Origin: Blastococcus sp. URHD0036
GTDB lineage: Bacteria > Actinomycetota > Actinomycetes > Mycobacteriales > Geodermatophilaceae
NCBI RefSeq assembly: GCF_000701365.1
Contig: NZ_JNIK01000013.1
Span: 248,001 to 312,000, forward strand
DNA: 64,000 nt
Direction of reading: 5' to 3'
The first letter of the stretch is position 1, and every line of letters begins with the position of its first letter. Below the pieces are notes generated by a model, which saw nothing but the letters and a program-made list of their open reading frames with translations, did not search any database and was not told the DNA's origin. Shown here in pieces: positions 1,316-46,002 of the stretch. Position numbers and translations under genes: made by a program.

Positions 1316-3532
1316 TCAGCCGCTCGCCGGATCGGGCACGCGGGACCAGCGCTCGGCGAGGGTCCCCACCGCGGCCAGCCGCTCCCGTGCGGTCGGCCAG
1401 TGCGCGGCGACGGCGTCGTGGGGCAGTGCGACGACCGGCCCGGAGTACCCGCGGACGAGCCGGAACCGGCCGAACCGCGGATCGCGCACGACATGGGTCA
1501 TGTCGTTCTCGACCAGGAGCGGTTGGGTGAGGAAGCCCGCGTGCGGGGTGACCGGGCAGGCCGGGACCCCCAGGCACCCCAGCTCCCGGAGCCAGTGCTC
1601 CACCGGCTCCGCGGCGAGGGTCTCCGCGAGCCGCTCCGTGCCACCCACCAGCGCCGCCGCGGCCTCCTCCTCGCCGGGCGTGCGGGCGGCGATCGTCAGC
1701 CAGCCGTCGGCGGCCCGGTGGTGGCGCCGGAACGGGGACGGACCGCGGAAGTCGCGGCCCCCCGTGGGCGGCTCCGGACGCCCGGCGTAGGTGGTCAGCT
1801 CGGCGGCCTGGAGGAACGACGCCGTCGCCGCCAGGGACACCGAGGCGGCGGCGCCCGCGCCCGTCCGCGTGCGCTCCACGAGCCCGGCCAGCACCCCGAG
1901 GGCGGCCAGGCACGAGGTGCCGATGTCGATCGTCGGCGCGGTGATGACCACCGGCTCGTCGTCCCCGCCCTGCGCCACGGCCAGCCCCGACCGCGACTGC
2001 ATGACCGGGTCGAAGCCCGGCAGGTCCGCGAAGGGGCCGGACCGGCCGAAGGCCGAGACCGAGCAGCGCACCAGCGCCGGCGCGGTGGCGGCGAGCAGGC
2101 CGTCGTCCAGGCCCAGGGCCCGCGCCTTCGCCGGCCGCAGGTTGTCCACCAGGACGTCGGCCTCGGCGAGGAGCTCGAGCAGCTCCGCGCGGGCGTCGGC
2201 GCGCCGCAGGTCGACCTCGGCCACGAGCTTGCGGTGGTTGACCGCGGCGTAGGGGGCGGAGAAGACGCGGTAGGGGTCACCGCGGGTCGGCTCGACCTTC
2301 ACCACGCTCGCGCCGAGGTCCGCCAGCAGCGTGCTGGCGAACGGCCCGGCCACGAAGGTGCTCAGGTCCACCACCCGGAGGCCCGCCAGCGGCGCGTCCG
2401 GTCGCGGGCCCGACGGCTCCGGTCGCGCGGGCGACCCGGGCCAGACGTCCGCCGGCGCGACCAGCGCGTCGGGCCCGGGCAGCCGCCGCACCCCGGGGGC
2501 GCCGTCGAACGTCACCGGCACGCCGGGCTGGACGACGGACCCGGCGACCGGGTGCCGGAGGGCCACCGGCGGAGCGGCGGAGGCCAGCACCTCGCCGCCG
2601 AGCCACTCCGCGCGGTCGCTCACCGGCGCGGCCGGCACCCCGGCCCCGGCGAGCAGGTCCAGCCACTCCTGGCGCGGGCGGGTGGCGAAGGTCCGCTCCA
2701 GCTCGACGCCCACCATCGCGCCGATCTCGGGCAGGTGCAGGTTGGTGAACTCGCCGTCGACGCCGGGCAGGACCATCACGTCGAGCCGGTCCAGCACGGT
2801 CAGCGCCGGCAGGAAGAAGTCGACGGTGAGCGCCGACAGGTGCAGCGACCGGCCGTCGCCGCAGCGGTAGACGCGGAAGCTCGCCCCCGCGTTCAGCCGC
2901 CCGCCGGTGGAGACGATCCGGTCGACGTCGAGTCCGTCGACCGCCATGACGGCCAGGCAGGCGGCCGAGGCGTGCAGGCCGGTGACTTCCAGCGCCCGCC
3001 CGTGCCCGGTGGTGCGCGCCGCGAGGACCCCGGCCGTGGCGGTCACGGCACCCAGCGCCCCGTGCACGGCGGCGACCAGCGGGACGACGGAGGCGATCGG
3101 CGTGCCGGGGTCGGTGGAGGGGTGGAAGACGGCGAAGCCGCCGAGGGCACCGGTGAGGAGCGGGTCCGCCGGCAGGTCCCGCCAGCGGCCCGCCGAGCCG
3201 TGCGGCGGCATCGCCAGGTGCACCAGCCCCGGGTGTGCGGCTCCGGGATCCGCGGTCCCGGGCGCGCCCGGGACGGAGTCGTCGACGAGCAGATCGGCCC
3301 GGCCGGCGAGGTCCGCGACGACGCCGGCCCCTGCCGTGACGAACCGCTTCCCGCGGTCCCAGCACAGGTCCTCGGGGCCGGCCGGGGACTCCGGCGGCGC
3401 GGGAGCCCAGCCGGGCGGCACCACCCGGACGACGTCCGCGCCGAGGTCGGCGAGCAGCATGCCCGTCGTCCGCCCGGCCTGGCCCGTGGTGACCTCGAGG
3501 ACGCGTACCCCTTCCAACGGCGCCTGTGTCAT
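1316..3532 (-). CDS. CaiB/BaiF family CoA-transferase, two-domain fusion
   Basis: The 738-residue protein contains two consecutive CaiB/BaiF (family III CoA-transferase) modules. The first covers about residues 1-360 (GVRVLEVTTGQAGRTTGMLL...) and the second about 376-738 (GLRVVDLSTFVAGPFASTLL, then NHRKL, VDNLRPAK and GFDPVMQSRSG). Family members are normally about 400 residues and work as interlocked dimers, so this is a tandem, internally dimeric form. The second half keeps the GFDP-type Asp region; the first half is more divergent (LPADPLLTGALGG). It would transfer CoA between carboxylic acids, acceptor unknown. Its ATG overlaps the stop of the small upstream ORF in an ATGA. With the IclR regulator and divergent amidohydrolase it may serve catabolism of an aromatic or carboxylic acid (inference). 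Confidence 0.85.
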   Translation of the reverse strand: MTQAPLEGVRVLEVTTGQAGRTTGMLLADLGADVVRVVPPGWAPAPPESPAGPEDLCWDRGKRFVTAGAGVVADLAGRADLLVDDSVPGAPGTADPGAAHPGLVHLAMPPHGSAGRWRDLPADPLLTGALGGFAVFHPSTDPGTPIASVVPLVAAVHGALGAVTATAGVLAARTTGHGRALEVTGLHASAACLAVMAVDGLDVDRIVSTGGRLNAGASFRVYRCGDGRSLHLSALTVDFFLPALTVLDRLDVMVLPGVDGEFTNLHLPEIGAMVGVELERTFATRPRQEWLDLLAGAGVPAAPVSDRAEWLGGEVLASAAPPVALRHPVAGSVVQPGVPVTFDGAPGVRRLPGPDALVAPADVWPGSPARPEPSGPRPDAPLAGLRVVDLSTFVAGPFASTLLADLGASVVKVEPTRGDPYRVFSAPYAAVNHRKLVAEVDLRRADARAELLELLAEADVLVDNLRPAKARALGLDDGLLAATAPALVRCSVSAFGRSGPFADLPGFDPVMQSRSGLAVAQGGDDEPVVITAPTIDIGTSCLAALGVLAGLVERTRTGAGAAASVSLAATASFLQAAELTTYAGRPEPPTGGRDFRGPSPFRRHHRAADGWLTIAARTPGEEEAAAALVGGTERLAETLAAEPVEHWLRELGCLGVPACPVTPHAGFLTQPLLVENDMTHVVRDPRFGRFRLVRGYSGPVVALPHDAVAAHWPTARERLAAVGTLAERWSRVPDPASG

Positions 3533-3666
3533 GCCTCTCCGCCCGCCACCCCCCGGACGCTAGCGCCATCCGCACAAAGATGAGAGGGAAGGCTTTTCGT
3601 CGCGCCTTGGCGAACAGTCACGTGCCCGTCCGTCCCAGCGACCGCCACCACGTAGCGGTTGCTCAT
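3529..3666 (-). CDS. Small ORF coupled to the CoA-transferase gene (hypothetical)
   Basis: A 45-codon ORF starts at ATG 3666 (MSNRYVVAVAGTDGHVTVRQ...). A good ribosome site, GGGAGGA, lies about five bases before the start, just after the IclR stop codon at 3681. Its TGA overlaps the CoA-transferase ATG (ATGA at 3532-3529), as expected for translational coupling. The first 20 residues look like the start of a normal cytosolic protein, whereas the rest is low-information sequence. It could therefore be a real small protein, a translated leader that delivers ribosomes to the CoA-transferase, or the remnant of a gene cut by deletion. No family recognised. Confidence 0.45.
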   Translation of the reverse strand: MSNRYVVAVAGTDGHVTVRQGATKSLPSHLCADGASVRGVAGGEA

Positions 3667-3680
3667 CCTCGTCCTCCCGG

Positions 3681-4472
3681 TCAGGCCGGCGTGCTGCCGT
3701 GCGCGGCCCGGGTGCCGGCGTCCCGCAGCGCAGCGGTCAGGGCCGGCTCCGTCGACCGGAACCGGTCCGTGGGGGCGGCGATGGTCAGGGCGGCGGTCGC
3801 CACCCCGTTCTCCACCACGGCGACGCTGGCGCAGGTGAGGCCGACGACGTACTCGTCGCGGCCGATCGCGATCCCCTCGACCGCGATGCGGTCCAGGTCC
3901 TGCTCGAGCCGCTCCCGGCTCGTGATCGTGGCGGGGGTGAGCCGGCGCAGCCGCATGTCGGCGAGGTGCGCCTGCCGGACGGCGGGGGTGGCGCAGGCCA
4001 GCAGGACCCGGGCACTGGTCCGTGCGTGCGGGTTGCTGGCGTAGTCGACGGCCAGCCCGGTGACGCGGACCATGTGCGAGCCCTCCTCGACGGCGAGGAT
4101 GCGGAGCTCCCCCCTCCCCCACGCGCTGAGGTAGGCCGTCTCGCCGGTCTCGCGCACCAGCGCGCGCAGCGCGGCCGTGTAGCGCTCCGGCACCCGCACG
4201 TCCCGGTGCACGGCCTCGGCGATCACCCCGGCGGCCGGACCGAGCACGTACCGGCCGTGCCGGTCCTTGGCCAGCAGACCCTCGCTGGCGAGGGAGTTCA
4301 GCAGGTGGTAGCCCGTCGGCAGGGAGAAGCCGTGCCGTTCGGCGGCCTCCCGTGCCGAGATGCCCCCGTCCCGGGCCGACTCCAGCAGGAGCCTGGCCGC
4401 CCGCCGCACCGACTGCAGAGTCGTGCCGCTGCCCTGCCGGACGTCCTCGGCGGCCGCCGACGATCTGGTCAT
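3681..4472 (-). CDS. IclR family transcriptional regulator
   Basis: The 263-residue protein has an N-terminal winged helix (about residues 16-80: LQSVRRAARLLLESARDGGISAREAA..., then HGFSLPTGYHLLNSLASEGLL) and a C-terminal IclR ligand-binding domain (about 90-255: GETAYLSAWGRGE, then IAIGRDEYVVGLTCASVAV). This layout is diagnostic of IclR regulators, which commonly control aromatic or carboxylate catabolism. I chose ATG 4472 because the HTH follows at normal distance; an upstream in-frame ATG at 4535 would run into the divergent promoter region. The start is preceded by GGTTTCATTTC, an AT-rich pentamer repeat (TGAAATGAAA on the plus strand) that could be the operator. It lies upstream of the small ORF and CoA-transferase on the same strand and is divergent from the amidohydrolase operon. 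Confidence 0.85.
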   Translation of the reverse strand: MTRSSAAAEDVRQGSGTTLQSVRRAARLLLESARDGGISAREAAERHGFSLPTGYHLLNSLASEGLLAKDRHGRYVLGPAAGVIAEAVHRDVRVPERYTAALRALVRETGETAYLSAWGRGELRILAVEEGSHMVRVTGLAVDYASNPHARTSARVLLACATPAVRQAHLADMRLRRLTPATITSRERLEQDLDRIAVEGIAIGRDEYVVGLTCASVAVVENGVATAALTIAAPTDRFRSTEPALTAALRDAGTRAAHGSTPA

Positions 4473-44118: not shown

Positions 44119-44493
44119 GGTGGAGGTGGCGGGAATCGAACCCGCGTCCTACGACGCATCACCAGGGCTTCTCCGAGCGCAGTCCGCTGTGCCTCTACTC
44201 GGCCCCGTCGATCCCGCGAACAGGTCGACGTGACGGGCCCAGTCGCTGTGTGGTGTCCCACACGCATCCGCGACCGGTGCGTGCGGTGAGTCATCTAGCT
44301 GATGCCAGGATCCGGGTCGATGACGAACCCGGGCTGACAGACTCGTCTAGCTGCTATCAGGCAGCGAGAGCGAAGTCGCGCTGATTGGAATCGGCGCTTG
44401 TGTGTTGTGCAACGGATCGTTAACGAGATGATCGTTGCCTTCCTCGGCTCGCTTCCCCTGGTCACCCGACCGCAGTCGAGACCAATCACCCCC
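44119..44493 (-). ncRNA. ssrA: tmRNA (ssrA)
   Basis: Both ends of the tRNA-like domain are readable on the minus strand: 5' GGGGGTGATTGGTCTCGACTG starting at 44493, and the T-arm/acceptor GGCGGGTTCGATTCCCGCCACC ending near 44119. The seven-base acceptor stem pairs (GGGGGTG with CACCTCC, one G-U). The tag reading frame resumes at GCC 44395 and encodes ADSNQRDFALAA with TGA at 44357. It rescues stalled ribosomes with SmpB, whose gene is 8 kb downstream. The ends are set from the stem pairing, so they are accurate to a few bases. Confidence 0.95.
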
Positions 44494-44499
44494 TGTGCA

Positions 44500-44529
44500 G
44501 TTATGCATCGAGGGTAACGGCTGCGTCCA
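44500..44529 (-). promoter_or_regulatory. Candidate ssrA promoter
   Basis: On the minus strand a -10 CATAAC (44505-44500) sits exactly seven bases before the tmRNA 5' end at 44493, and a -35-like TGGACG (44529-44524) lies 18 bp upstream of it. Each matches four of six consensus bases, and the position fixes the call. Confidence 0.5.
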
Positions 44530-44585
44530 GCCCGGTGTTCCCGCGCCTCGCCGCCGCCTGCGTCGCGATCGCCCCGCCGGCGCAG

Positions 44586-44660
44586 CTCTTGCGGTGTTTC
44601 TCGCCCATCTGCGGTGTTGCAGCGCCGCACGAGCACGAGAAGCACCGCAAGGGACGCCGG
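44586..44660. repeat. Palindromic repeat unit A (75 bp)
   Basis: One of three related palindromes in the 366-base gene-free space between corA and ssrA. Outer arms CTTGCGGTGTTTCTCG (44588-44603) and CGAGAAGCACCGCAAG (44636-44651) pair at 15 of 16 bases, and an inner GCGGTGTTGCAGCGCCGC can fold again. The 75-bp unit matches unit C at 64 positions by my count. Confidence 0.7.
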
Positions 44661-44686
44661 TACGTCTCCTCCGTCCCTGCCCGGCA

Positions 44687-44758
44687 CCCGTTGCGGGTGT
44701 TGCTCGTCCATTGGGAGTTCTGCAGGACCAGCGATGCGCGAGGAACACCCCCAACGGG
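44687..44758. repeat. Palindromic repeat unit B
   Basis: Arms CCCGTTGCGGGTGTTGCTCG (44687-44706) and CGAGGAACACCCCCAACGGG (44739-44758) pair at 18 of 20 positions. The unit shares the GGTGTT...CTCG arm pattern of units A and C but differs in sequence, so it is a diverged member of the cluster. Confidence 0.65.
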
Positions 44759-44771
44759 GTGCCGACGCCAG

Positions 44772-44846
44772 CTCTTGCGGTGTTCCCGCTCGACCCGCGG
44801 TGTTGCAGCGCCGCAGAAGCACGAGAAACACCGCAAGGGACGCCGG
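44772..44846. repeat. Palindromic repeat unit C (75 bp)
   Basis: The unit is a direct repeat of unit A (186 bp apart) with shorter perfect arms: CTTGCGGTGTT (44774-44784) with AACACCGCAAG (44827-44837). It ends 14 bases before the corA stop and may terminate corA transcription; otherwise its role is unknown. Confidence 0.7.
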
Positions 44847-44859
44847 GACGGACGGCGCG

Positions 44860-46002
44860 CTAGATCCAGCCGCGGCGCTTGAAGATCGCGTAGAGGGTGA
44901 CGCTGACCCCGAGCATCAGCACCAGCGCGAACGGATAGCCCAGCCGCCAGTCGAGCTCCGGCATGTGCTCGAAGTTCATGCCGTAGACCCCGCCGACGAG
45001 GCTGGGCGCGAAGAGGATGGCCGCCCAGGCCGAGATCTTCTTGACCTCCTCGCCCTGCGCGATGCTCGTCAGGGTCAGCTCGCGGATCTCCTCGTTCTGC
45101 CGCTGCGCCACCAGCGTCGCGTTGACGGTGAGGATGTCGCGCAGCTGCAGCCGGAACCCCTCGACCCGCTCGATCACCTGCGCGACGTGGTCGGCGACGT
45201 CGCGCAGGTAGCTGCGCAACTCCTCGTCGACGCCGTACTTCTCGAAGCCGGCGGTGATGGCGCCGAGGATGCCGGCCAGGGGTGCGGCGGCGCGCTGGAA
45301 CTCCAGCACCTCCTGCGACAGCTCGTAGATGCGCCGCGAGGCACCCGGGTCACCGGCGAAGACCTGGACCTCGATCTCGTCGATGTCGTTGGACAGGCCC
45401 GCGACCACGGGCGAGTACCCGTCCACGACGGCGTCCAGGATCGCGTACAGCACCGCCTCGGGGCCCTTGGCCAGCAGCGCCGGCTCGCTCTCCAGCCGGC
45501 GCCGCACCCGCGACAGGTCCGGCGACTCGCTGTGCCGCACGGTGACGGCGAAGTCGCGGCCGAGGAACAGGTGCAGCTCGCCGAACTCCACCTCCTCGGT
45601 GGCGTCCAGGTACCGCGCGGCCTTGAGGACGACGAACAGGGTGTCGCCGTAGCGCTCGAACTTGGGCCGCTGGTGGGCCTGGATGGCGTCCTCGACGGCG
45701 AGCTCGGGCAGTCCGTACTGCTCCGCCAGCTCCCCGAGCTCGGCGGGCTCGGGCCGGTAGAGGCCCAGCCAGACCATGCGGTCGTCGAAGCCCTCGGTCA
45801 GCCACTCGTGGCTGTCGGCGGCCGTGTCGGGGGTGGCCACCCGCCGGCCGCCGGCGTAGACGGCGTTGTCGACGATCCGTGAGGGGCGCTCGGTGGCCGG
45901 CTCGGGCTCAGCGGGGACGGCGAGGGGACGGCGGACCACCTCGGCGCGCGGGCGGCGCAGCGTGGTGAGGGCGGTGAGGGGCGCGAGGCGACGTTCGACC
46001 AT
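44860..46002 (-). CDS. corA: CorA-type magnesium/cobalt transporter
   Basis: The 380-residue protein has a long soluble N-terminal domain, a coiled alpha-helical stalk and two C-terminal transmembrane helices with the diagnostic pore motif YGMNF (VGGVYGMNFEHMPELDW) between them. It ends in a basic tail (AIFKRRGWI), as in CorA. It forms a pentameric channel for Mg2+ and sometimes Co2+. The start at ATG 46002 has GGGAG six bases upstream. A short proline-rich leader ORF ends 66 bases before it, which points to translational control (see separate entry). Three palindromic repeats lie just after the stop. Confidence 0.93.
   Translation of the reverse strand: MVERRLAPLTALTTLRRPRAEVVRRPLAVPAEPEPATERPSRIVDNAVYAGGRRVATPDTAADSHEWLTEGFDDRMVWLGLYRPEPAELGELAEQYGLPELAVEDAIQAHQRPKFERYGDTLFVVLKAARYLDATEEVEFGELHLFLGRDFAVTVRHSESPDLSRVRRRLESEPALLAKGPEAVLYAILDAVVDGYSPVVAGLSNDIDEIEVQVFAGDPGASRRIYELSQEVLEFQRAAAPLAGILGAITAGFEKYGVDEELRSYLRDVADHVAQVIERVEGFRLQLRDILTVNATLVAQRQNEEIRELTLTSIAQGEEVKKISAWAAILFAPSLVGGVYGMNFEHMPELDWRLGYPFALVLMLGVSVTLYAIFKRRGWI

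Follow-up and report, generated by a model that had tools for sequence, protein, structure and literature searches.

Downstream of corA in Blastococcus sp. URHD0036 lie three long palindromes that belong to a repeat family found so far only in the Geodermatophilaceae. Its members are almost always located at the 3′ ends of genes, and units have been gained and lost as species diverged. They probably serve as 3′-end hairpins, acting as two-way terminators or as stabilizers of transcript ends. The family is of an ordinary kind of element, and no published description of it was found in the open-access literature.

The array occupies positions 44586–44839 of the window (the whole 64,000-nucleotide stretch analysed, from a 5.18 Mb genome assembled in 19 contigs) and is composed of three palindromes of 68–80 nt each, all of which had been recognized in the initial annotation. 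These are a type A unit, A1 (44586–44653), a type B unit, B (about 44684–44762, with a core match at 44691–44754), and a second type A unit, A2 (44772–44839), none of them assigned to a strand. The array sits 3′ of corA (44860–46002, minus strand, stop at 44860; CorA Mg2+ transporter, Pfam PF01544, E = 9e-61) and before the co-directional ssrA gene further downstream (44119–44493, minus strand; tmRNA, ARAGORN and Rfam RF00023), with which corA is syntenic in relatives. A2 follows the corA stop codon at a distance of about 22 nt. On the ssrA side, A1 begins about 44 nt upstream of GGGAAC (44537–44542, minus strand), the −35 element of a promoter motif of ssrA that resembles those of ECF (SigR) type and has GTT 18 nt further down. 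As plus-strand RNA, A1, B and A2 fold with −47.2, −47.3 and −34.6 kcal/mol, respectively, corresponding to z-scores of −6.7, −5.6 and −2.0 against dinucleotide shuffles, A2 being the weakest. An Rfam search of the region returned the tmRNA as its sole match, leaving the units without a known RNA family.

Searching the genome with A1 as the query, and then with symmetrical consensus sequences of both types, revealed about 16 units of type A and 8 of type B (about 24 in all) at 18 sites, and further copies were found in relatives, many of them across the Geodermatophilaceae. The earlier proposal of an extragenic repeat family is thus borne out. The type A family consensus is CTCTTGCGGTGTTCCTCGTGCTCCTGCGGTGCTGCAGCACCGCAGGAGCACGAGGAACACCGCAAGAG, about 68 nt in length. 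The type B consensus is CATTGCGGGTGTTCCTCGTGCTCTACCGGTCCTGCAGGACCGGTAGAGCACGAGGAACACCCGCAATG, with the arm TTGCGGGTG where type A has TTGCGGTG, and a core reading ACCGGTCCTGCAGGACCGGT. The middle arm TGTTCCTCGTGCTC is common to both types, and most A and B units have CTGCAG at their centre. A1 and A2, previously described as near copies, are indeed 85% identical over 82 nt, some flanking bases included. Unit B had been read as the A design with compensatory changes; type B has dispersed copies of its own, and the sequence comparison places unit B in a second, related subtype, a sister to type A rather than a compensated or drifted copy of it, and the A/B differences are subtype differences. 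Five of the eight B units adjoin an A unit, in either order (C11:44314/44405, C11:500918/500987, C13:252965/253041, C11:205869/205940 and the A-B-A array of the window). A role as an uptake sequence (DUS/USS) was rejected, as there are only about 24 copies.

All 18 sites in this genome are within 52 nt of a stop codon, the surrounding genes having been predicted by codon-usage scoring with the window as training set. Nine sites are in convergent spaces, nine in co-directional spaces and none in divergent ones. The spaces 80 nt or longer in a 1.24 Mb portion of this genome served as background: 43 are convergent, 277 co-directional and 143 divergent. Against it, convergent spaces are in excess (P about 1e-5) and the absence of divergent ones is significant (P about 1e-3); compared with all spaces regardless of length, the P values are 1e-3 and 0.04. 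The bias is repeated among 38 units of relatives (21 convergent, 15 co-directional and 2 divergent; P about 1e-12 for the convergent excess and 1e-4 for divergent spaces, or 5e-8 and 0.04 against the all-space background), counts that are not fully independent since some of these sites are orthologous to those of URHD0036. Most of the flanking genes that were identified have ordinary metabolic or housekeeping roles (PRPP synthetase, ferrochelatase, a SerB-like phosphatase, a Mrp-type ATPase, PhoH and peptidase M3). The placement next to ssrA, which the initial annotation had singled out, is typical for the family in that the array follows a stop codon, and is not specific to ssrA. The placement bias could also reflect selection against insertion near promoters.

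Type A was detected in 33 of 99 sampled Geodermatophilaceae genomes, in 8 of 12 genera, and type B in 34 of 98, in 6 of 12 genera (both E ≤ 1e-6). In an order-wide sample of 250 genomes, 13 matched at E ≤ 1e-8, all of them Geodermatophilaceae. Neither phage nor plasmid records contained a match to the units. An exact 19-mer scan of a named genome collection gave mostly chance matches in coding sequence; those forming the palindrome came only from Blastococcus (two strains, three contigs) and Geodermatophilus amargosae.

Comparison of orthologous sites in four congeners (G001–G004) reveals turnover. One site (L158) is empty in all four congeners, another (L157) lacks A and B units in every congener, and a third (L152) is empty in G001. 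At site L156, the stop codon is already followed by a hairpin that all five species conserve, and G004, which has no repeat there, retains only that hairpin. Site L153 is occupied in all by A, A-B or A-B-A-B, the last being the arrangement in G003. At the remaining orthologous sites there is either a unit of type A or B or palindromes unrelated to them. The corA–ssrA spacer is itself palindrome-rich, with palindromes that differ among the congeners: there is a single B-like unit in G002, a GATCAT-type palindrome in both G001 and G003, and other repeats in G004. Among members of other genera, several have one simple hairpin right after corA and others have another gene there. Presence and absence of units, together with their exchange for unrelated palindromes, show that units are gained and lost; as orthologous sites hold A, B, arrays, unrelated palindromes or nothing, it appears that a hairpin is usually kept while its sequence changes. 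Such replacement of one palindrome by an unrelated one at a given gene end provides a natural system for distinguishing hairpins kept for ending transcription from those merely tolerated.

Whether the fold is under selection was assessed using 38 aligned A units. The GCGG/CCGC blocks, which lie toward the ends and around the centre, hardly vary. Compensatory changes keeping the fold had been suggested earlier, and covariance modelling proposed as a check; double changes do occur in 18 of 32 pairs, with a covariation score above that of shuffles, but covariation is weak, paired cells amount to 83.8% versus 82.6% for shuffled alignments, and one third of the units have lost pairing at several positions of the middle stem. 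The shuffle control used for pair counting leaves the relatedness among the A units in place. These alignments give weak support for selection on the A fold, and decay from a symmetric founder would fit them as well.

The initial annotation had likened the palindromes to REP or MITE elements, a comparison that holds for their dispersal and placement and fails for other features. Like REP and BIME sequences (PMC3733652), the A and B units are dispersed and extragenic, lying mostly near 3′ ends in convergent or co-directional spaces; a survey of GTAG/CGTC REPs found the same preference for these spaces, close to where ORFs end, and Actinobacteria are not among the carriers of such repeats that it names (PMC3733652). 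Like BIMEs, they occur singly and in compound arrays of different subtypes, as the B units adjoining A units and the A-B-A-B array of G003 illustrate. However, at about 68 nt they are about twice the usual length of REPs (20–40 nt), they are nearly symmetric with a 4-nt centre, and their copy number is low. A GTAG/CGTC tag lies near an end in 8 of 23 units (either strand) at no fixed position, and is therefore not family-wide. The Y1 transposase/RAYT family (PF01797) was detected in none of five genomes, whereas control genomes were positive. Because of the length, the end tag and the RAYT result, we do not file the family as REP, though it is REP-like in behaviour; it adds a REP/BIME-like repeat family to the actinobacteria, one found without a RAYT transposase in these five genomes. 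REPINs with a RAYT (PMC3116915) likewise form a population of dispersed inverted-repeat units within a genome, but here no such transposase was found in the five genomes, and an HMM search of 1.24 Mb of the genome found only full units, with no solitary half-units and no parent element. Similarly, the units resemble MITEs in being short, in having inverted halves and in their presence or absence between species, but differ from them in having no internal sequence, no recognized target duplication and no identified parent transposon. No target duplications were recognized by eye at unit ends, the empty sites being too diverged for an exact junction; no element with the same ends was found in the 1.24 Mb, and the neighbouring genes examined are not transposases.

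Taken with the folding, these placements lead us to favour the 3′-end hairpin reading as the probable one: all sites in this genome follow stop codons, the bias is repeated in relatives and shared by other palindrome families of the genome, A1 and B fold far beyond shuffles, and some hairpin tends to persist at orthologous sites despite changes in its sequence. Each unit would be transcribed within the 3′ end of the upstream mRNA, where it would form a long hairpin and so terminate or protect that transcript. As the DNA is palindromic, one unit could serve both genes of a convergent pair. At the locus described here, corA transcription would stop at the A-B-A array, which would thereby shield the promoter of ssrA. 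The family would have spread by copying, with local duplication added in the case of A1 and A2. The units place a stable, GC-rich hairpin shortly behind the stop codon, and in position, size and stability they are like actinobacterial intrinsic terminators that have no strong U-tract, except that these hairpins are themselves members of a repeat family with copies across the genome. What counts against this reading is the weak covariation, the native hairpin already present at L156 and the U-tract: none follows the stems in the unit sequences, and a scan of the minus strand, the one transcribed here, lists nothing resembling a terminator at the units. Mycobacterial RNA polymerase reportedly needs a U-tract, a finding attributed to Czyz in 2014.

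The native hairpin at L156, beyond which the unit there lies, favours a different account, to which we give perhaps a quarter of the weight: the units may be selfish miniature mobile elements of MITE or REPIN type, with no host function, that insert at many positions and persist only behind genes, where the damage is smallest. Their presence and absence at orthologous sites, the avoidance of divergent (promoter) spaces and the similar distribution of several unrelated palindrome families would all be expected of such elements. Yet none of the five genomes encodes a Y1 transposase, the neighbours examined include no transposase, there is no obvious target duplication or terminal tag, phages and plasmids carry no copies, and the family numbers only about 24 units. 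Binding of gyrase or a nucleoid protein at gene ends has been proposed for enterobacterial BIMEs, and the units could by analogy be DNA-level sites for such proteins at gene ends where positive supercoiling accumulates. Symmetry at the level of the DNA, the CTGCAG centre, the near-invariant GCGG/CCGC blocks and the A-B arrays are consistent with this, but half of the sites in this genome are co-directional and the middle stem is broken in many copies, and we consider it unlikely. Finally, the three palindromes might have arisen by local tandem duplication only, without a wider family. A2 is the unit of the genome most similar to A1, the two share flanks (CAG...GGGACGCCGG), and they are reciprocal best or joint-best matches at 84% among the units compared, so one local duplication is likely. 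This duplication is nested inside a wider family, with about 21 other units in the genome and many in relatives, which refutes it as the full explanation and makes that account highly improbable.

Other palindromes are distributed in a comparable way. A de novo survey of 1.24 Mb of the genome uncovered further repeated long palindromes (GGCATAGGAAGC..., CGAGATCTGCAC..., CTCGTGCTCTGCCCAC... and GGAGGAGATCCGTCGG...). Palindromes scoring at least 18, the A and B units included, comprise 25 in convergent spaces, 24 in co-directional spaces, 2 in divergent spaces and 3 inside genes. At least four other dispersed long palindrome families (on contigs C11, C12 and C13; for example, AGGCATAGGAAGCGATCCCCACGTCC and CGACGAGATCTGCACTCTCGTCACCATCAGC) prefer 3′ ends too, and a GATCAT...ATGATC family occurs at the same post-corA position in relatives (corA–ssrA spacers L118, L121 and L138). 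A broader and speculative possibility, which we regard as doubtful, is that several unrelated, mobile long-palindrome families act in the Geodermatophilaceae as interchangeable transcription-end cassettes, moving independently of RAYT, with selection keeping a 3′ hairpin and a different family being present per species at the same gene end.

Some arms contain GTCGAACTCG (or GAGTTCGAC on the other side) in place of GTGTTCCTCG, often on one side only (L153 2997–3137, L152 2975–3042, L159 3001–3068 and L238 322–545); these arms look as if they had been exchanged with a third variant. At L149, two A units flank a 304-residue ORF (3134–4048) without a Pfam match, and pairs of A units about 1.06–1.08 kb apart are also present in G002 and G004. 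The L149 ORF was rejected as a cargo gene, as it belongs to no Pfam family and each A unit there simply follows a stop codon.

The ssrA promoter motif (44493–44545, minus strand, and its counterparts in relatives) has the form of SigR/SigH-type ECF promoters. GGGAAC-N18-GTT is found at a fixed distance, about 49 nt upstream of ssrA, in 20 of 21 loci, that of URHD0036 included, and in Streptomyces the tmRNA is among the members of the SigR regulon (PMC4921905).
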